A stretch of 44,161 nt of DNA, taken from the NCBI GenBank assembly GCA_005792145.1, contig SXSS01000100.1, positions 1-44,161 of the forward strand, read 5' to 3'. The position numbers were made by a program, and so were the translations under genes. Origin of the DNA: Planctomycetia bacterium (GTDB taxonomy: Bacteria; Planctomycetota; Phycisphaerae; Phycisphaerales; SM1A02). The notes beneath the pieces were generated by a model, which was given only the letters and a program-made list of their open reading frames with translations, was not told the origin of the DNA and did no database searches. Shown here piece after piece: positions 29,248 through 39,255 of the stretch (the first letter of the stretch is position 1; each line of letters begins with the position of its first letter).

Positions 29248-30654
29248 TCAAAGGCCCAGCATTCGCGCGAGCCCCGCAGGTGGAACATCCGCGATCAATC
29301 CATCAATCTTGGTCGATCCGTTGAACGCGGAGCATCCGTCAGCAGCCAAATATCCGCTGCGTACGGCGCCCTCCATCGTCGCGGGCCAGCCCGTATCACA
29401 CCAATCCCCAGCGAGCAATAAATTATCAATTCCTCCGCGGATTCCATCACGAACAGCGCTTGGTCGCAGGTCATCAATTCCTGGCGTGCATGCAAATGTT
29501 GCGCGTTTTTCCTTGACAGCGCGAAACGCAATGGGATCAAGGCCACGCGTGTTTGGAAGCGCCCACTGCACATCGTTCATCACCTTGACGACGATATCGG
29601 CCTCATCAAGTTCCATCCATTCATCTGCTGCGCTGATGACGGCATGAACATGTGAACGCCCCTGCGAGTCCACGCCTTTATCAAAGAGCCACTGCGTCGC
29701 ACGGCCTGGCAAGACGATGTGAGGAGTTTGCATAATCGGCTGATCGAAAAAAAGATGCACCCCAAGAATTGGGCTGAATTGAATCTCTTCCAAACGCGCG
29801 AGTCGAACATCTGCCGCGCGCATTGTGTCAGAGCAAAGTTTTGCCAATCGATCTGGTGGAACGGATGCGATCACTGAAGATGATTCGACCATTCCCTCAT
29901 CGGTCACAACGCCTGTGACGCGCCGACCATCGAATGCGAGTGCGAGTGCGCTCACTCCCATTCGAAGTTCGCCGCCACAAGAACGGAGAATCTCCTCCGC
30001 TGGGTCATAGAGCGACAAGAGAGGAACAGACGAGAGACCCATCACTGGACTCCACGAATCCTGCAGAAAACCCTGCTGAAAGACATACATCGCATAGAAC
30101 GCGTCGGTCCGATCACATGGGACATTGCATGCGCTAGTGATGACTGGCTCCCAAAAAAGTTCACACGCGGCACGCGTCTGTTTGGTCTCGTTCAAGAACT
30201 CTCCAAAAGATCTTCCACGCCATCGCTCTCGACCTTCGCGTCCCAAGCGAATCAATCGCCACATCGCTCGGGCAATCGACCGCTTGTCTGCGACACCAAG
30301 AAATTTCATGCGTAAAAAACTGATTGAGAAATGTCCAGGTGCGGGAAGTCGTCCCGGCATCATCACATCTGGCTCGTATGGAGGATTTGCCCACCAGATA
30401 CGAGGATGCCACTGCACGCTTGTGAGAACTCCAAGTCGGTCATAGAGATCAAGCAAGTTGGTGCAACTTCCCATCAACACATGCTGACAATTGTCGAGCA
30501 TTTCTCCACTGCGAGGATCGACGAAACTCGTCGCTCGTCCACCAAGTTTCTTTTTGGATTCCAGCAGCACCACGCGTTCGCCTGCATCGACAAGGCGAAT
30601 TGCGGCGGCGATACCTGCCAGTCCGCCTCCAACGATTGTGATCGGTGGCTTCAT
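29248..30654 (-). CDS. hpnE: Hydroxysqualene dehydroxylase HpnE
   Basis: FAD-dependent amine-oxidase-fold enzyme that reduces hydroxysqualene to squalene, the last step of the HpnCDE route. 468 residues. The dinucleotide site is at the N-terminus (ITIVGGGLAGIAAAIRL, then LLESKKKLGGRATSF); NCQHVLMGSCTNLLDLYDRLG is typical of HpnE. Near the C-terminus, NLLLAGDWCDTGWPATMEGAVRSG is the FAD-closing motif of this group. The ATG overlaps the hpnD stop as ATGA. Phytoene desaturase relatives look similar, but the position after hpnC and hpnD settles the call. Confidence 0.95.
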   Translation of the reverse strand: MKPPITIVGGGLAGIAAAIRLVDAGERVVLLESKKKLGGRATSFVDPRSGEMLDNCQHVLMGSCTNLLDLYDRLGVLTSVQWHPRIWWANPPYEPDVMMPGRLPAPGHFSISFLRMKFLGVADKRSIARAMWRLIRLGREGRERWRGRSFGEFLNETKQTRAACELFWEPVITSACNVPCDRTDAFYAMYVFQQGFLQDSWSPVMGLSSVPLLSLYDPAEEILRSCGGELRMGVSALALAFDGRRVTGVVTDEGMVESSSVIASVPPDRLAKLCSDTMRAADVRLARLEEIQFSPILGVHLFFDQPIMQTPHIVLPGRATQWLFDKGVDSQGRSHVHAVISAADEWMELDEADIVVKVMNDVQWALPNTRGLDPIAFRAVKEKRATFACTPGIDDLRPSAVRDGIRGGIDNLLLAGDWCDTGWPATMEGAVRSGYLAADGCSAFNGSTKIDGLIADVPPAGLARMLGL

Positions 30655-31571
30655 GACTTGCGGCCCATGCCGCGAGCACGAAGCGCGATCATCACTTTGC
30701 GTATCGTCGGCAATGAGACACGCTTGCGCGAAATTTGCGATGGATCACGGGCAATTCGCTCGAGAAGTTCACGGTAAATCTCGGTGAGCGCCCAAAGCGT
30801 CGGTCGGCACATTGGATCGATCATCGCATCAAGCGGCTGACTTCGCACGAAATGTTCGCGGGCACGGTCGATCATCGCGCGCATCAACTGTTCGCACTGA
30901 GCGGGCTTTGACCACGCGCACAAATCTTCGGCGGTGATTCCAAATCGATCAAATTCTTCTTGAGGAAGATAGACCCTTCCAAGTCCAACATCTTCAACAA
31001 CATCGCGCAAGATATTCGTCAATTGAAACGCGATGCCACGATCAACGGCAAGTTCGAGCGCGCGCGGATCTTCGAATCCCCAAATTCGCACGCAAACTGT
31101 TCCAACCGTACTTGCAACCTGACAGCAGTAGGCGCGCAATTCGTTCCAGTCCGCAATTTTTCGAGGCTGCAAGTCCGCGATTTGACCATCGATCATGAAA
31201 TGAAAGTCGTTCGCGTCAAGAGGGTATTCCCGCGCCACCGCGGAGAGCGCAATCCAAAGTGGTTTTTCCGAGAGTGATCGCCCCGCAAGCGCATCAACTG
31301 TGGCGGATCGGAAAGAATGAATATCGTTTTCGCCAGAGTTACTTCTGCAATTGGCGCTGATCTGGGCACCAGAAGCTTGGCCATCAACGATGTCGTCCGC
31401 TTCGCGCATCCAAGCATAAATCGCATACATCGCAGAACGCCGAGGTTCTGGGGTCAAGCGAAGTCCCCAGTAGAAATTCCCCGCGCGCGTTCGAGTGATT
31501 TCTTTGCAGACTGCAACTGCTGCGCGAGTCTGCGCATCACTTTGCAAAGCGCTTTGTGCGATCAGACTCAT
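30651..31571 (-). CDS. hpnD: Presqualene diphosphate synthase HpnD
   Basis: Squalene/phytoene synthase fold; condenses two farnesyl diphosphates to presqualene diphosphate. 306 residues. The first Asp-rich motif is in MYAIYAWMREADDIVDG and the second in QLTNILRDVVEDVGLGRVYLP, both with intact Mg-binding aspartates. GNFYWGLRLTPEPRR opens the domain. It overlaps hpnC upstream and hpnE downstream by four bases each, so translation is coupled through the three genes. HpnD is told from HpnC by the stronger RD-E-D second motif and gene order. Confidence 0.95.
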   Translation of the reverse strand: MSLIAQSALQSDAQTRAAVAVCKEITRTRAGNFYWGLRLTPEPRRSAMYAIYAWMREADDIVDGQASGAQISANCRSNSGENDIHSFRSATVDALAGRSLSEKPLWIALSAVAREYPLDANDFHFMIDGQIADLQPRKIADWNELRAYCCQVASTVGTVCVRIWGFEDPRALELAVDRGIAFQLTNILRDVVEDVGLGRVYLPQEEFDRFGITAEDLCAWSKPAQCEQLMRAMIDRAREHFVRSQPLDAMIDPMCRPTLWALTEIYRELLERIARDPSQISRKRVSLPTIRKVMIALRARGMGRKS

Positions 31572-32530
31572 TTCACATCTGCTCCGATTTTTCTAGTGGC
31601 CCATCGAGCACGCAGCACCAACGAAACTTTCGCCCACTTGGAAAGTCGCGGACGAGAGAGACATGTTTCATAATTCCAATTCTCAATCTGGCGAAGCGTT
31701 CCTGCGCCGCCTTGAAGAAAGAGCCAAATCAACGGTCGGTTGTTGGGTTTGAGCATTGGCAATAACGAAGATCCAGATTCAAAGAGCCCCCACGTTCGAA
31801 GGGTCAACTCTCGCATTGATTCTCGCCATGACTGGAGAAACATTTGATCTGGAGCGTATCCCTGCCGACAAGTCGAGACAAGCCTTTCCTCGAATTGTTC
31901 GACTTTCCAATATTCACGCGGCACATAGATGCGATCCCGTTCTAGGAGATCGCGACGCGCATCTTGCCAGTGATTGGTCAGTTGGAGCGCAGTGCAAATC
32001 GCATCGCTGCATCGCAAGCATTCTTCGTCGCGCCGTTCGCCAAGCAACATCAGAACCAGCCGCCCCACTGGATCTGCGCTCAATTTGCAATATCCGATGA
32101 CTTCGTCCCATGTTTCGTATCGCGTCTTTATCTGATCCATCTCGAAGGCGCTGATCAAGTCATCGAACGGTTCTTGCGGAAGTGAATGGCGTGAGATGAC
32201 TGGCATCAACGCAACAAAGATCGGGTGACTTGCGTGACCTGCGAAACATTGATGCAATTGATCACGCCACCAAGCCAACAACTCCGTGGAGCGCTCGCGA
32301 CTATCAGTTTCATCACCAAGATCATCGGCGGCTCTGCAGAATGCATAGACAGCAGAAAAATCATCGACCAAAGAAGCTGCGACGAAGCGACTGAGCACGC
32401 TGAAGTTCTCACCGTGATTTTGCGTTAAATCCTTACACCATCGCTGAGCCTCTGCCAGCGACGCTGTTCGCGAACTCGTCGGTCCGAACTCCGCGAGCGC
32501 AACCGTTCGATCTGCCTTCGTCGCATTCAT
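31568..32530 (-). CDS. hpnC: Hydroxysqualene synthase HpnC
   Basis: Squalene/phytoene synthase-fold enzyme that converts presqualene diphosphate to hydroxysqualene. 320 residues. The first Asp motif is AFCRAADDLGDETDS (DDLGDE, 69-74); the second is QLTNHWQDARRDLLERDRIYVP, where the altered HWQD-RRD pattern is typical of HpnC. The start is the ATG at 32530 (MNATKADR). A longer open frame continues 87 codons into the opposite strand of ispH, but its Arg-rich translation is not family-like. First gene of hpnC-hpnD-hpnE-queG, 32 bp from the divergent ispH start, so both promoters must be packed in or within the 5' ends. Confidence 0.95.
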   Translation of the reverse strand: MNATKADRTVALAEFGPTSSRTASLAEAQRWCKDLTQNHGENFSVLSRFVAASLVDDFSAVYAFCRAADDLGDETDSRERSTELLAWWRDQLHQCFAGHASHPIFVALMPVISRHSLPQEPFDDLISAFEMDQIKTRYETWDEVIGYCKLSADPVGRLVLMLLGERRDEECLRCSDAICTALQLTNHWQDARRDLLERDRIYVPREYWKVEQFEERLVSTCRQGYAPDQMFLQSWRESMRELTLRTWGLFESGSSLLPMLKPNNRPLIWLFLQGGAGTLRQIENWNYETCLSRPRLSKWAKVSLVLRARWATRKIGADVK

Positions 32531-32562
32531 ATGATTCCATAGGCTACACCGACAAAAGAGGG

Positions 32563-33657
32563 ATGAACGGCTATGATGTGATGCTCGTGAAGATCCTTCT
32601 CGCCAATCCCCGTGGTTTCTGCGCCGGCGTCTATATGGCAATCGATGTGGTCGACCAACTGCTCGATCTTTGTCCCGACGAGACGATCTATGTCTTTCAT
32701 GAAATCGTGCATAATCGACATGTTGTTGAACGATTTCAAAGACGCGGAGTCGAGTTCGTCGAATCCATCGCTGAAGTTCCAGACGGCGCAATTGTGGTCT
32801 TCAGCGCGCATGGAGTCAGTCCAGCAATTCGCCACGAAGCGAAAGCAAAGAAACTTGCTGCGATTGATGCGACATGCCCACTCGTCACCAAGGTGCACGC
32901 AGAAGCAATCCGATACGCACGCAAGGGATTTCAAATTCTGCTCGTTGGACACCGACATCATCAGGAAGTTGTTGGAACTCTCGGCGAAGCTCCTGAAGTA
33001 ATGCAGGTCGTGGAGAAACCTTCTGACATCGCCAGTTTGACCATCTCCGATCCAGACAAGTTGGTCTATCTCACTCAAACAACGCTTTCCCTTGATGATG
33101 CAAACACAATCATTTCCGCACTCAAGGTTGCATTCCCTAATATCAAAGATCCGCCAGTCAGCGATATTTGTTATGCCACAACGAATCGCCAAATGGCCGT
33201 GCGAGCCATCGCACCCAAGTGCGATCTCGTCCTCGTTGTCGGGAGCGCGAATTCTTCCAATTCAGTTCGACTGACTGAAATATCTATGAATCTAGGCACT
33301 CCGGCGCGATTGATCGATGACCGAAGCGAAATGAAAGCCGAATGGTTTCTTGGTGTTGAAACACTTCTTGTCACTGCCGGAGCGAGCGCGCCAGAAGATC
33401 TTGTGCACGATTTGATCGAAGATCTCGTGCGTACTCACGGAGCCGAAGTCGAGCAACACGATGTCTGCCACGAAGAAGTCGAGTTCGGTCTGCCTGGAAC
33501 ACTCAAGACAATGATGCGTGCGCGTGGAGTTGATCCCGCTGGCCGTCGGATCGTGCGCGGCGATGAAGGTTCTCGCTTGCACGAGTGGTTTGCCAAGCAC
33601 AACATTCCTTTCCGTACAGTCGACTTGACGGTACAGGGATCAGCAATTCAAAATTGA
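32563..33657 (+). CDS. ispH: 4-hydroxy-3-methylbut-2-enyl diphosphate reductase IspH
   Basis: Last enzyme of the MEP pathway; a [4Fe-4S] protein that makes IPP and DMAPP. The three cluster cysteines are in NPRGFCAGV, DATCPLVTKVH and VSDICYATTNRQ. FSAHGVSP, LVGHRHHQEVVGT, YLTQTTLS and GSANSSNSVRL are all in place. 364 residues, about 45 more than usual. The extra part comes after the normal end (VEFGLPGTLK) and contains RGDEGSRLHEWFAKHNIPFRT; I do not recognise it. The ATG at 32563 has AGAGGG directly against it; the ATG at 32581 in the same frame gives a typical N-terminus, so the true start is open. The stop overlaps a TTG that could start rlmN. Confidence 0.96.
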   Translation: MNGYDVMLVKILLANPRGFCAGVYMAIDVVDQLLDLCPDETIYVFHEIVHNRHVVERFQRRGVEFVESIAEVPDGAIVVFSAHGVSPAIRHEAKAKKLAAIDATCPLVTKVHAEAIRYARKGFQILLVGHRHHQEVVGTLGEAPEVMQVVEKPSDIASLTISDPDKLVYLTQTTLSLDDANTIISALKVAFPNIKDPPVSDICYATTNRQMAVRAIAPKCDLVLVVGSANSSNSVRLTEISMNLGTPARLIDDRSEMKAEWFLGVETLLVTAGASAPEDLVHDLIEDLVRTHGAEVEQHDVCHEEVEFGLPGTLKTMMRARGVDPAGRRIVRGDEGSRLHEWFAKHNIPFRTVDLTVQGSAIQN

Positions 33658-34889: not shown

Positions 34890-37800
34890 TTAAAGTTGAG
34901 CAACTTCCGGCGCAGGTAACGCCCCACAATTCAAGGCGAATTGTTCAATTTCCGCGGCGGTCATCTTGCGGATACTTCCGTCGATTGCGGCATCGTGAAC
35001 ACGGCGCGCGAACTCGATCCACGCACTTCGTCGTGCGACATCGACCGCTGCGCGAGCAAAAAGATTCTGCATCATCTCGCGAACCGCGCGTGACTGAAAA
35101 TTTCCACGCAGTCCCATTGGTATGAACGGCAATGTCGTTCGCAAAATCTGATCGGGCCAGTCGCTTGACCGAAACTCGACGACCCATCGATTGCTTGCCA
35201 ACCGAATTTCCAACCGGTGCAAATAACGCCGCCGTATTTCGTCACCGCGCGCAAGATGCACACCGAGCGTTTCGCGTATGCGGTGACTTTGATCGAGGCT
35301 TGTCGTAAGCGCACCGACATACCAAAGATCACGAATCAGAAAGCACTCCGCCAACGGCAGAATCGCCAGTCGCGCGAGTTCTCCAGAGTCCGCTGGATCA
35401 TCATTGCGGCGCAGATCGCTGATGCATGCGGCAAACTGAGTTGCGTATTCGAATCCTCCCCACATCTCGCAACGCCGCATCGCCATCGCGAAATCACGCA
35501 TTGCTTCGCGGCCATGTCGAGTATTCGAAAGTGGTGTCAACTGTGCCAACATTGCCGCGACCGCCTTGCGAAGTCTTCGACCTCGACTGCGATCTCGTCT
35601 TCCACCAAGTTGACGATCGGCGCTCACGCGTCTGGCAAGTCGAAGCGTGTCTTCAGTCGCCTTTGATTGCGCAGTCATCTTCGCTGTCGCGCCTGGGGAT
35701 TGATCTGTTTTTGCCGCCAAGATTCGCCCAAGCTGAATTGCCTCGAAACTTCGCGCAAATCCTCGTAATTCCATACGGCGAGCCGCCTCTTCCAACGCTT
35801 CGATCGACACAGGAATGAATCCTCGCTGAAATGCAATTCCAAGTGCGACCAAATCGCAGAGCCGATCCGTCAAGAAGATTGCTCGCGCCTCGGTGACGAT
35901 ATCGATGAGCACACGTCGATCTGGATGTGTCGTGACTTCCGCAACCGACGGAAGTCGGTTCGCCGCCTGCTGAATCTCCGCATCAATTTGATCTTCGAGT
36001 GGACAAATGTTTGCGATGATCGCTGTACGCAGCGGATCAGCAACTCGAAGTTGTGCATCGGTGGCAATGGCGCGAATTGTCTCGACAGGATCAATTCCAA
36101 TCACAACATCTGCTTCACCATATGGAATCTGAGTGGTGAAACTTGCAAGCTCGGCGAGATGCACTCTCCCTCCATCATCAACAACACTGGGCGATTCTTC
36201 GTCCATCCGTGTAAAGACCAACTGCGTCCAAGCACGACGGCCAGGCCCAATGGGAACACCAAGATGCGTCCAATCAACTCGGAAACCCATCTTGCGACCA
36301 GCCTCCGCCAATAATTGTCCCGCCACTCCAGGTGCGTCGCCGCGAAATCCTGCAAGATGTATGCGCCACATTCCTTGCTCTGCGTGCAGCGGACGCGGCG
36401 GAGTCATCCGAACTGAAGTTCGCAACTCATCAATTCCAGCGGGAGGACGAGTGCGAACGATTTCAACCTGTTCGAGCAGCGATTCGAGCTTGAAAAACAC
36501 TCCTTTTGCCCCAGCCACAATTGAACGCTCGACAAGTGGTTCGGATCGAAGCGGATCGGATCCACGCAAAAGTCCCCGCGCAACTTGAGTCGCAAGTCCA
36601 GGGTCACGAAGTTCGCACGCGTTATCCGCAGGAAGAACAAATCGCTGGAATCGAAGAAATCCATCGCGATCAATTTCTCGCGCAGTGCGATCGAGTGCTG
36701 TGATGTTGCGCCGTGGCGGCGGACCATCACGCGCAATCACAATCGTCAACGCTGTGGACTCCGCCGCCATCACAATCCCATCGCGAAGCGCCTCGCTGTC
36801 GTTGATATCGAAACGCAAAAAAGTCAAACTTGTCTCTCCCACTGTTCCCGAAGCAGCTCGAGCGATGCGCTCGATGTCAAGATTTGCATCATCACCAAAA
36901 TCACAGACAACAATAATTCTTGGATTTGATTCGAACTCCGCTTGTTTCACTGCGCCAATACCTTCGCGCCCGAAGCGGCGACCATCCCATGTTTCGACGG
37001 TGCAGATCACATCCGCACTCGGCGGCGATTGACGATCATTCACAATCACTCGACGCAGTTGATCTGGATAGACCCGTGCTGCAACAATCGCAGCGGCTTC
37101 TTCGATTGCACTTGCGATCACATCGAACGCTGATCCAATACCAATTCCCGCACTTCTGCGAGGCAAGTCTATTGTTGCCACCCACGCTGGCACCCGCGCA
37201 AGTCGTTCATTCAACTGCAATCCTGGGCGAATTTCATGCAACAAACGCACGACACGACGAGTAAGCAAACTTGTCCTCAATCCATCGTTGATGCCAAGCG
37301 GTTCGACATCGCCTGCAGCGGGCGGCATCGAATTCCACCAGACTTGCGCAGGCACCCCACCACTTCCACGCATCGATTCGGCAATTGCGACAATTCGAGT
37401 CGCAACCGATCCTGGTCGAGCCTCGACAAGAATGACGTGATGGCAACGCTCCAAGATTCGAATGACAGCGGCATGATCGATTGGTTCGATGACCGTCAAT
37501 CGAAGCACTGGCACTCGCCCCGTCATACTCATTTCATCGAGCAAGTGACGCACTGCGACAGCGCTTGCACCAATAGCAAGAAAACCATACTGCTCTCGTT
37601 CTCCGGGATTCGGAAGATGCTCGAGCCGATTCAATTCGAGTCCGCGAATGATTCGCAGCGGATCGGCGGAGTCTCCCAGTCGCGGCGCTTGCTTGCGGCG
37701 CAACCAGGCATCGTGATCGACCCGAGAAACTTGACGATTGGGAGCCACAAGAAGTGTGGACCCCGAGCGCAAGATCGACACATGAATAATGAGCGCCGAC

Positions 37801-38348
37801 GGACGACGAGTAGCGCGAGACAATCGAAGAACTTCATCGCATCCACTGCGTACTCCTGCGATATCGCAAGGTTCGACTGCTGTGAATCCAGCGCGGCGGC
37901 TTATTCGACGAGGGCAGGTCGCCTCAACGGCGAATGGGTTGTCCTCCATCACCACGCAAATACCTGCCGATTCGCCAAGGGGCGTCTGAGACAATTGCGC
38001 GAGTGACAAGACCACACTGTCCAATTCATCATTTGGAATCAGGATCGCGACGCGCCGACCACGCGCGGCTTCTTGTGCGGCAAGTTCGATTGCGCGTGAG
38101 GCATCCTGCACTTCAATAACTCTGACCCCATTGCGTTGGAGAATCAATTCATTTGCTTCCAACTCCGCCGCGCGGAAAACGGTGTCGAATGGAGCGCGCC
38201 TGACACCGAAAATCACATGGACATCAAGTTCGGTTTCAAGAAAACCTTTCAACATTGCCTCGGCCGCAGTGCAGAGTGCTGATCCATCCACTCGCGCCAG
38301 CGGTGGAGACCATTGTGTCAATGCATTTGTTTCCGCCGACGAGTTCAT
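34890..38348 (-). CDS. Indolepyruvate:ferredoxin oxidoreductase-like protein lacking cofactor motifs
   Basis: 1152 residues, the length of proteobacterial IorAB-fusion enzymes, and the same domain order by eye. Pyrimidine-domain-like part about 25-210; transketolase-C-like part about 250-345 (YGFLAIGASAVAVRHLLD, HHVILVEA); TPP-domain-like part about 400-545 (ETWDGRRFGREGIGAVKQ, IIVVCDFGDD, LTIVIARDGPP). A stretch at 565-625 sits where the two ferredoxin clusters belong but has a single cysteine; POR gamma-like domain about 660-850 (LAGFRGDAPGVAGQLL, GEADVVIGIDPVE); C-terminal DUF6537-like region about 890-1140. The TPP GDG...N signature and the CxxCxxC ligands are absent. The frame is intact throughout, so this is not a decaying gene by truncation. 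ATG 38348 is preferred; an ATG at 38423 would overlap the HAD gene. Function unknown. Confidence 0.7.
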   Translation of the reverse strand: MNSSAETNALTQWSPPLARVDGSALCTAAEAMLKGFLETELDVHVIFGVRRAPFDTVFRAAELEANELILQRNGVRVIEVQDASRAIELAAQEAARGRRVAILIPNDELDSVVLSLAQLSQTPLGESAGICVVMEDNPFAVEATCPRRISRRAGFTAVEPCDIAGVRSGCDEVLRLSRATRRPSALIIHVSILRSGSTLLVAPNRQVSRVDHDAWLRRKQAPRLGDSADPLRIIRGLELNRLEHLPNPGEREQYGFLAIGASAVAVRHLLDEMSMTGRVPVLRLTVIEPIDHAAVIRILERCHHVILVEARPGSVATRIVAIAESMRGSGGVPAQVWWNSMPPAAGDVEPLGINDGLRTSLLTRRVVRLLHEIRPGLQLNERLARVPAWVATIDLPRRSAGIGIGSAFDVIASAIEEAAAIVAARVYPDQLRRVIVNDRQSPPSADVICTVETWDGRRFGREGIGAVKQAEFESNPRIIVVCDFGDDANLDIERIARAASGTVGETSLTFLRFDINDSEALRDGIVMAAESTALTIVIARDGPPPRRNITALDRTAREIDRDGFLRFQRFVLPADNACELRDPGLATQVARGLLRGSDPLRSEPLVERSIVAGAKGVFFKLESLLEQVEIVRTRPPAGIDELRTSVRMTPPRPLHAEQGMWRIHLAGFRGDAPGVAGQLLAEAGRKMGFRVDWTHLGVPIGPGRRAWTQLVFTRMDEESPSVVDDGGRVHLAELASFTTQIPYGEADVVIGIDPVETIRAIATDAQLRVADPLRTAIIANICPLEDQIDAEIQQAANRLPSVAEVTTHPDRRVLIDIVTEARAIFLTDRLCDLVALGIAFQRGFIPVSIEALEEAARRMELRGFARSFEAIQLGRILAAKTDQSPGATAKMTAQSKATEDTLRLARRVSADRQLGGRRDRSRGRRLRKAVAAMLAQLTPLSNTRHGREAMRDFAMAMRRCEMWGGFEYATQFAACISDLRRNDDPADSGELARLAILPLAECFLIRDLWYVGALTTSLDQSHRIRETLGVHLARGDEIRRRYLHRLEIRLASNRWVVEFRSSDWPDQILRTTLPFIPMGLRGNFQSRAVREMMQNLFARAAVDVARRSAWIEFARRVHDAAIDGSIRKMTAAEIEQFALNCGALPAPEVAQL

Positions 38349-38379: not shown

Positions 38380-39255
38380 TCATCTTGTGCGTAATACTTC
38401 CGCAACAACGAATGCCAAGGCATTTTCGTCGTGATCTGGAGCACGGTGCTTTGCAAGAGCGGCGACGGCAGAATCCGCATTCGCAACTGCGAAGGATTGC
38501 CGCGCACCGCTGAGCATTCCAACATCATTCAGGCCATCGCCGACAGTGACTACTTGCGACTCATCAATCCCGCGCAACTTGCAGAGCCTTTGAATCATTA
38601 ACCATTTATCAACATTCGCATCGAAAATTTCGAGCAAGTGCGTATCGATGCCAGCTGTGCCAAGTGCGACCAATGCAGGCCAATGCTTGATCGCAAGTCG
38701 CTCTGGAACTTCTTTGCGAATTGCATCTGCGACGAGAGCCAAATCGCTTGCGATCGCTACTGTTCCAACACGCAGAACATGTTCCAACTGCGCAGAGCGC
38801 TCGCTTGCATCATCGTGCAACTGTGGCACAGAGCGAGTCGTTACTGGATGCACTCCGAACCACCAGCGACTCGCTGCGTCAAGTTGTGCGTCGCCCACCA
38901 ATAAATAGTCATATCCTGCTTGAGTCGAATCTTTCAAGAGATGAGCGAGATGTCCATGACGAATGAGACTCTCTGTGCAGTGGCTGACGAGATCGTGCGA
39001 AATCACGATTCGGTCTTCGCAGCGCCCGCTCGCGATGTCGTGGAGAGCGGCGCCACCAGCCGAAATAACCACTCCTGATCCCAGCACATCTTGTGCAATA
39101 CTTTGACATTCAAGCCAAGAACGACCCGTTGCGAAAACGACTTCGATTCCAGCATCTTTCGCCAACTCAATCGCCTGTCGGTTCGCCAATGAAACTGAAC
39201 CACTGCGATCAAGCAGTGTTCCGTCGAGATCAGTCACAAGAATCTTGCAGCGCAT
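38380..39255 (-). CDS. HAD-superfamily phosphatase, Cof (IIB) type
   Basis: 291 residues. HAD motif I is at the N-terminus (ILVTDLDGTLLD, nucleophile Asp), motif II in VVFATGRSW, the lysine of motif III in VDKWLMIQRL, and motif IV is VVTVGDGLNDVGMLS. The large C2B cap lies between motifs II and III (about 75-215), as in Cof-type sugar-phosphate or nucleotide phosphatases. The start is ATG 39255 (MRCKILVTDLDGT); a longer open frame upstream is not protein-like. Divergent from the TPR-like membrane protein gene with 34 bp between starts. Cof substrates are broad and cannot be read from sequence. Confidence 0.93.
   Translation of the reverse strand: MRCKILVTDLDGTLLDRSGSVSLANRQAIELAKDAGIEVVFATGRSWLECQSIAQDVLGSGVVISAGGAALHDIASGRCEDRIVISHDLVSHCTESLIRHGHLAHLLKDSTQAGYDYLLVGDAQLDAASRWWFGVHPVTTRSVPQLHDDASERSAQLEHVLRVGTVAIASDLALVADAIRKEVPERLAIKHWPALVALGTAGIDTHLLEIFDANVDKWLMIQRLCKLRGIDESQVVTVGDGLNDVGMLSGARQSFAVANADSAVAALAKHRAPDHDENALAFVVAEVLRTR

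Follow-up and report, generated by a model that had tools for sequence, protein, structure and literature searches.

We report that a gene on contig SXSS01000100.1 of a Planctomycetia bacterium (assembly GCA_005792145.1) encodes a full-length homologue of the fused indolepyruvate:ferredoxin oxidoreductases (IOR) that has lost the residues holding thiamine pyrophosphate (TPP) and the iron-sulfur (Fe-S) clusters. The whole analysed stretch of 44,161 nucleotides is referred to below as the window, and the family of the window protein as f1. The protein is probably a family-wide pseudoenzyme, that is, a fused IOR in which the TPP and Fe-S sites were replaced and in part deleted, and which has been retained in a non-redox role. 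A preliminary description of the sequence had proposed a repurposed pseudoenzyme, and this proposal is supported by full-length homology, ligand loss and purifying selection; a conserved protein under purifying selection that has lost its catalytic residues is what is understood as a pseudoenzyme. Judging from the ligand loss, the ancestral activity would have disappeared. The same description had suggested scoring the ligand columns against intact IOR, structure prediction, a search for orthologues with dN/dS estimation and a search of the genome for normal iorAB; corresponding analyses are given below, the genome search being made with POR and POR_N.

The gene is an intact frame of 1152 codons plus a stop codon, exactly as that description had it (Table 1). 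The longest open reading frame begins at position 38528 and comprises 1212 codons with 16 cysteines; the ATG at 38348 as start is supported by the near homologues L002 and L003, in which the earliest start codon that follows a stop aligns with residue 1 of the protein. The stretches quoted earlier (ETWDGRRFGREGIGAVKQ, CDFGDD, RFVLPADNACEL and GFRGDAPG) are all present in the frame and were correctly placed, and all were aligned to intact relatives. ETWDGRRF falls on the TPP signature MGDGTFFHSG and replaces it; VVCDFGDD falls on the IILENxTT strand, the acid-Asn end of which is altered; NACEL falls on the cluster motif CEYCLECTTQTGCPG, in a region with 0-1 cysteines against seven in intact relatives; and GFRGDAPG is the altered counterpart of the gamma-domain glycine motif GVGGMGIG. 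The observation made in the preliminary description is thereby confirmed. Chance is excluded because a homologue occurs in 36 of 37 same-family genomes and the profile comparison given below has an E-value of 2.5e-102.

A key question is whether the protein is related to IOR along its whole length. Several searches were empty: a Pfam scan of the window protein gave no match, phmmer against the Protein Data Bank (PDB) gave none, and the profile of seven intact proteins gave none at E 1e-5, so family profiles and profile-profile comparison were needed. With hhalign, 61 window-type proteins (profile A4) were matched to the seven intact ones (profile A2; order-mates, six of f5 and one of f6) with a probability of 100 % and an E-value of 2.5e-102 over 1071 columns (query columns 14-1106), that is, with full-length homology and in the domain order of a fused IOR. 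Among NCBIfam models, PRK13030 matched residues 738-939 (E 1.3e-10) and PRK13029 residues 738-911 (E 1.2e-8), and IOR beta and alpha were also matched weakly. The score of 39.6 bits does not reach the curated cut-off of 816, which by itself is a weak feature because the intact order-mate L041 (448.7 bits) misses it too. The PRK13030 E-values form a series: 4.1e-134 in L041, 7e-96 in L048, 7.3e-22 in L049, 2.6e-19 in the f4 protein L047 and 1.3e-10 in the window protein. The Pfam POR cut-off is passed by some other f1 members (for example in G035, 32.8 bits) and not by the window protein.

An AlphaFold2 model of the window protein (mean pLDDT 85.5, pTM 0.81) points to the same superfamily. Its best 18 PDB matches are all pyruvate:ferredoxin oxidoreductases (PFOR), with E-values down to 1.3e-13; the PFOR-type domain folds are matched locally, as expected of a member of the PFOR/OFOR fold superfamily, and the relative placement of the domains is unmatched. 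In BFVD, the only match at E <= 0.001 was to an acetolactate synthase (1e-5). Domain limits were read from the alignment and from DSSP of the model. Domain II also has a weak PDB profile match to 1yd7 (profile positions 249-314, E 0.079), and a fold search with the C-terminal domain gave no PDB match at E <= 0.001; POR and DUF6537 domains are recognised in the intact relatives. The domain order and length of a fused IOR, assigned by eye in the preliminary description, are thus borne out by hhalign and by the PFOR fold matches. That description had named as contrary evidence a lack of homology or the presence of the ligands elsewhere in the chain; homology extends over the full length, and a search of the 1212-codon frame for the three-cysteine pattern gave no match.

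To assess the cofactor sites, 23 cofactor and active-site positions (L041 numbering) were scored in 70 proteins: 34 of f1, six of f4, 28 intact, L048 and L049. These were chosen from 102 rows, from which some close same-genus rows, the different protein L052, twice-fetched loci and some close f9 rows had been omitted beforehand. The 28 intact proteins hardly vary at these positions: 11 have GDS in place of GDG, one has Ile instead of Thr at 536, one has Thr instead of Gly at 742, and in three the Gly at 777 is Ser or Ala. By contrast, the conserved Glu, GDG, Asn and CPGCPH/DTGC sites are gone in 34/34 f1 proteins, 6/6 f4 proteins and L049, with 0-1 of the Fe-S cysteines left. The window protein therefore has neither the TPP site of a functional fused IOR (Glu, GDG, Asn) nor the cluster cysteines of its intact relatives (CPGCPH/DTGC; CxxCxxCx5C; Cx5Cx5C), and the loss of both kinds of ligand, as originally described, holds in all the f1 proteins scored. 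In the column of the conserved Glu (E71 of L041), the f1 proteins have A, S, G or P. In the Fe-S region, which spans L041 residues 640-700, cysteines number seven in 28/28 intact proteins and 0-1 (mean 0.91) in 34/34 f1 proteins.

Beyond what had been noticed earlier, a third site is affected, since the CPGCPH...DTGC cysteines of the TPP domain were lost together with much of their segment. This segment (395-500) is 106-111 residues long in the intact proteins (n = 28), 58-82 in f1 (n = 34) and 73-91 in f4, and the loop following the Asn (532-565) has 34 residues in the intact proteins, 12-16 in f1 and 19-23 in f4. L049 about retains both lengths (106 and 32). In the gamma domain, G741 and G776 of L041 are Arg in 34/34 f1 rows, so that the glycine motif is no longer intact, and G742 is kept in most; L049 retains two of the five gamma glycines. 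L051 (f4) has one cysteine at another cluster column. L048 keeps every cysteine, with GDA for GDG and three other changes, and its branch is clearly longer than those of the intact proteins; it is a candidate intermediate between intact and stripped forms.

Could such a protein still be a TPP- and Fe-S-dependent oxidoreductase, its cofactors held by residues that we do not recognise? The one cysteine remaining in f1 is inherited, sits in the column of the first cluster's first ligand and is kept in 31 of the 34 scored proteins, which speaks for this idea. The counts of 0-1 cysteines in the Fe-S region and of none in the CPGCPH/DTGC region in all 34 f1 proteins, the shortened TPP segments and the missing Glu make it barely credible.

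Another important question is whether the gene is maintained. Nei-Gojobori dN/dS values for 13 same-genus gene pairs range from 0.053 to 0.160; they lie between 0.072 and 0.089 in the six pairs with dS < 0.9, the other seven having dS of 1.1 to 3.1. The pseudoenzyme gene is therefore under purifying selection, as had been supposed from its intact frame. A relic drifting towards loss would explain why the formerly catalytic parts are the least conserved, and it has next to no probability in view of the dN/dS of 0.05-0.16, on which we rejected it, and of the intact frames, the retention in 36/37 f1 genomes and the newly conserved residues.

Conservation was in fact moved within the protein. Mean pairwise identity was calculated per domain for 24 f1 proteins (10 of the 11 g1 rows being omitted and the window protein kept) and the 28 intact ones. 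It amounts to 31.9 % in f1 against 64.9 % in the intact proteins for PYR, 26.3 against 65.3 % for TPP, 19.9 against 70.2 % for Fe-S, 43.4 against 45.2 % for domain II, 43.2 against 55.4 % for gamma and 35.4 against 43.7 % for the DUF6537 part. Thus, the Fe-S, TPP and PYR parts, the most conserved in intact enzymes, are the least conserved in f1, and conservation has shifted from this catalytic half to domain II and gamma. In f4, where one distant row (L051) was compared with three, the shift is not clear: conservation of PYR and Fe-S is close to that of domain II and gamma, and the C-terminal part is the least conserved.

In 88 columns, one residue is shared by at least 32 of the 34 f1 proteins; 41 of these agree with the intact proteins and 47 lack such agreement. 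Ten are clear replacements, in which at least 32/34 f1 proteins share one residue where at least 24/28 intact proteins share another: E135, E238, E452, R669, R704, R822, R829, D832, P998 and R1040. According to DSSP of the model, R669 ends the strand 660-669 and R704 starts the strand 704-714, and the two residues may line the Rossmann-like cleft. These data bear on the principal rival explanation, in which the new charged residues would build a different catalytic centre, located probably at the surface of gamma/domain II and working without TPP or Fe-S. Such a new enzyme would be consistent with the charged nature of nine of the ten replacements, with further residues conserved in f1 (R85, D560, W707 and E745 among them), with the low dN/dS, with domain II and gamma being the most conserved parts, and with the adjacent phosphatase gene described below. 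However, five of the ten replacements are Arg, which suits binding at least equally well, no catalytic motif was recognised, and the f4 majority residues differ from f1 at the ten positions, so that we consider a new enzyme unlikely.

The f1 proteins are also unusual in composition, with Lys/Arg contents of 0.8/12.5 %, compared with 0.6/12.0 % in f4 and 4.5/8.6 % in intact proteins; the window protein has the lowest Lys and the highest Arg among the 26 window frames tallied. One conserved cluster of f1 neighbours has 1.6/11.6 % Lys/Arg, and other proteins of f4 loci average 1.7 % Lys. Part of the bias may thus be general composition, and it is stronger than in most neighbours.

If the pseudoenzyme were a dominant-negative or regulatory subunit, an active 2-oxoacid oxidoreductase should be present in the same cell. 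In the own genome (assembly 90 % complete), no match to POR (PF01558) or POR_N (PF01855) was found at E 0.001, whereas the same POR search was positive in 11 of 14 control genomes; a protein search of this genome hit one place only. Regulation of a normal sister IOR, an option raised in the preliminary description, is therefore unlikely there. The same-genus genomes G011 and G016 have no POR match either; no partner was thus found in three g1 genomes, which speaks against a regulatory role there. Among 81 sampled f1 genomes, 46 have some POR match and 39 have one that scores above the cut-off; the pseudoenzyme itself accounts for part of these hits. G026 (f1) carries, besides the pseudoenzyme, a normal IorA-type protein, L052 (IOR_alpha 744.9 bits), next to a POR frame. 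These last observations, together with the normally multimeric nature of the 2-oxoacid oxidoreductase family, favour a regulatory subunit, but the gene occurs both where a POR partner is present and where none is, and this role is accordingly very unlikely.

With respect to coexisting intact IOR in f1 genomes, seven of eight POR frames of at least 1040 aa that score above the cut-off and are not the pseudoenzyme were examined (the G029:C449 frame was omitted). Only L233 matched the A5 profile, in a separate 630-aa frame; the other six we take, from short motifs judged by eye, to be NifJ-type PFOR or other 2-oxoacid enzymes. L052 (also L148, G026:C90) is an IorA fused to NAD(P)/FAD-binding (GltD-like) and ferredoxin-type parts, 1161 aa in all, with the POR frame just downstream.

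The search for relatives covered 61 genomes, the own genome and 60 others, and gave a match in 51. In f1, the gene is near-universal: the one genome of 37 without a match has an assembly 72 % complete, and among the 36 homologues, one is truncated by the end of its contig. Matches were also present in 6/6 genomes of f4, 6/6 of f5, 3/5 of f6, 0/6 of f2 and 0/1 of f3. Across the class, matches at E <= 0.001 were obtained in 210 of 298 genomes, in many of them only as short partial matches; the families with long matches include f9-f15, f17 and f25. Here, 21 f1 genomes are among those listed with a match and none is among the 20 listed without one, a further 68 genomes without a match standing outside that list. 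Across the phylum, 246 genomes (f1 being represented by the own genome) with at most three candidates scored in each gave long matches of the f1 profile only in f1, f5, f6 and f13. Intact fused IOR is present in representatives of f5, f9-f15, f17 and f25 and in part of f6. The intact-type frames L183, L184 and L189 (f15, f25) are ~1600 aa long, and the profile match ends near position 1125-1133 with a long extra region beyond.

Did the degenerate forms arise once or several times? In two trees, with 34 and 27 of the 70 rows, f1 and f4 each form one clade (SH-aLRT 100). They are grouped with each other (support 97 and 94) and with L049 (98 and 94); this assemblage branches beside L048 and does not fall within the intact group. 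Placing L048 with two intact f6 proteins by constraint was rejected (p-AU 0.005), and hhalign matched the f1 profile to five f4 proteins with an E-value of 1.7e-88. Since both TPP-segment deletions are common to f1 and f4, a single event is suggested, and a common origin of the two degenerate forms is favoured; L049 may represent an earlier or separate stage. Long-branch attraction may still lie behind the grouping of f1, f4 and L049, as the branches are long and the support for the placement of L049 is 0 in a tree without f1.

Of 90 confirmed stretches, the best 80 served as named loci. Their record names are mostly Phycisphaerales, Phycisphaerae or planctomycetes, with ten uncultured bacteria and a few Singulisphaera, Kuenenia and Limnohabitans, which we take as bin labels; isolate names of the relatives suggest lakes and the sea. 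In the window, the upstream neighbour is a Cof-type HAD-IIB phosphatase gene, the product of which matches PF08282 (Hydrolase_3; 129.4 bits against a cut-off of 20.9, E 2.5e-37) and HAD-SF-IIB (67.1 against 41.8), as well as the Cof subfamily TIGR00099 at 114 bits, below the cut-off of 137. A HAD gene lies at most 900 bp upstream in 76 of the 78 loci with room for it, and on the same strand in 64; in the other two loci, it is ~1.1 kb upstream in one and absent from the other. These 78 loci are not independent, many being close relatives. Clustering gave 49 of 51 HAD neighbours on the same strand, most commonly at a spacing of -1 (the stop codon excluded), which corresponds to a stop that overlaps the next start. 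The HAD neighbour was not found in 16 loci, L133-L148, 15 of which carry f4, f5 or f6 genes. In 61 of 76 loci, RlmN is encoded downstream on the other strand.

Around f4 genes, a conserved gene of ~380-470 aa lies downstream in five of six loci (L140-L143 and L147), its L140 copy being Rho-factor-like (NF006886, E 3.4e-119). A gene of 275-340 aa without a Pfam or NCBIfam match lies upstream in four of these five, and a gene with a guanido-phosphotransferase domain is near (tested for L140). Elsewhere in the window (positions 29248-33657), we take, by eye, the HpnE-, HpnD- and HpnC-like frames to form a squalene/hopanoid-type cluster, and an IspH-like gene seems to lie beside it.

Table 1 Coordinates of the pseudoenzyme gene, its domains and the neighbouring phosphatase gene in the window
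Feature	Position	Strand	Remarks
IOR-like pseudoenzyme gene	34890..38348	minus	1152 codons + stop, intact frame
Domain I, PYR-like	37734..38303	minus	aa 16-205
Domain II	37224..37664	minus	aa 229-375; weak NCBIfam IOR_alpha match aa 249-326, E 0.19
Remodelled TPP domain	36714..37181	minus	aa 390-545; shorter CPGCPH/DTGC segment and post-Asn loop; other residues in place of GDG and Asn
Fe-S region remnant	36495..36626	minus	aa 575-618; one Cys (C578), 7 in intact relatives
Gamma (POR) Rossmann-like domain	35709..36383	minus	aa 656-880; R669 and R704 at former Gly columns; conserved W707, E745, R822, R829, D832
C-terminal mostly helical domain, counterpart of DUF6537 in intact relatives	34974..35657	minus	aa 898-1125
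Cof-type HAD-IIB phosphatase gene	38380..39255	minus	upstream, 31 bp gap; putative start at MRCKI

How might a pseudoenzyme of this size work? Domain II, gamma and the helical C-terminal domain would form the core that maintains the inherited body; an anionic ligand or partner could bind in the gamma cleft, an idea that comes from the two gamma Gly columns having turned into invariant Arg. The protein would then be a scaffold or sensor that binds a ligand, and its partner might be the adjacent HAD phosphatase; this last step is the weakest and is suggested by gene order alone. We tentatively hold it possible that this cofactor-free protein of ~1150 residues, converted in the ancestor of one planctomycete family and near-universal there, has gained, at the surface of gamma/domain II, a new site that is either catalytic or specific for a ligand, and may act in one pathway with the Cof-type phosphatase. 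The functional link to the phosphatase is, taken separately, rather doubtful.

Several observations weigh against the reading of a non-redox pseudoenzyme with these features. The whole-chain TM-score to PFOR is only ~0.3, and the domain placement therefore differs or is mispredicted. Several of the 47 f1-conserved columns without agreement are less conserved in intact proteins rather than different there. The POR and POR_N searches miss the window protein itself, so that another degenerate relative would go unseen by them. In 12 of 76 loci, the HAD gene and the pseudoenzyme gene are on different strands, and since RlmN, RluD and TPR-like neighbours are widely conserved as well, gene order is weak evidence of function.

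If the pseudoenzyme reading is correct, annotation by the weak PRK13030 match would wrongly assign ferredoxin-dependent 2-oxoacid oxidation to these bacteria. Moreover, intact forms, a candidate intermediate (L048) and fully stripped forms occur in one order, so that the route from enzyme to non-enzyme could be traced stepwise. We found no description of a redox-dead IOR in the titles and abstracts retrieved from the open-access literature, and the words indolepyruvate, ferredoxin and pseudoenzyme are absent from the main text of PMC11266412, which deals with the class.

With fused IOR of the PRK13030/PRK13029 type, the window protein shares homology along the whole chain and the order of the domains, and it matches PRK13030; it differs in lacking GDG, Asn, CPGCPH/DTGC and the set of cluster cysteines, in having Arg for the first gamma Gly, and in its two shortened TPP segments. 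PFOR of the NifJ type (PDB 6cio, 2c3y and 7plm) provides the best fold matches of the model, over 908-968 alignment columns, but identity is 9-11 %, whole-chain similarity is low (as given above) and the cofactor ligands are absent from the window protein. The f4 degenerate IOR-like proteins, of the same order, and L049 of f6 have lost the same cofactor sites as f1, and f4 also has both TPP-segment deletions; unlike f1, f4 has other majority residues at the ten replacement positions and no HAD neighbour in the scanned loci, and L049 retains the segment lengths. Very large full-length pseudoenzymes of oxygen-sensitive metabolic enzymes that are near-universal in a lineage are, to our knowledge, rare. 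The nearest precedent known to us is the PFOR moiety of eukaryotic sulfite reductases, those of fungi among them, in which the cofactor ligands of the moiety have been lost. As described in PMC2275785, the eukaryotic reductases carry an N-terminal PFOR moiety and, like the window protein, keep a PFOR-family body in another context; there, however, the moiety is fused to a redox enzyme, whereas the window protein is a free-standing, full-length bacterial chain.

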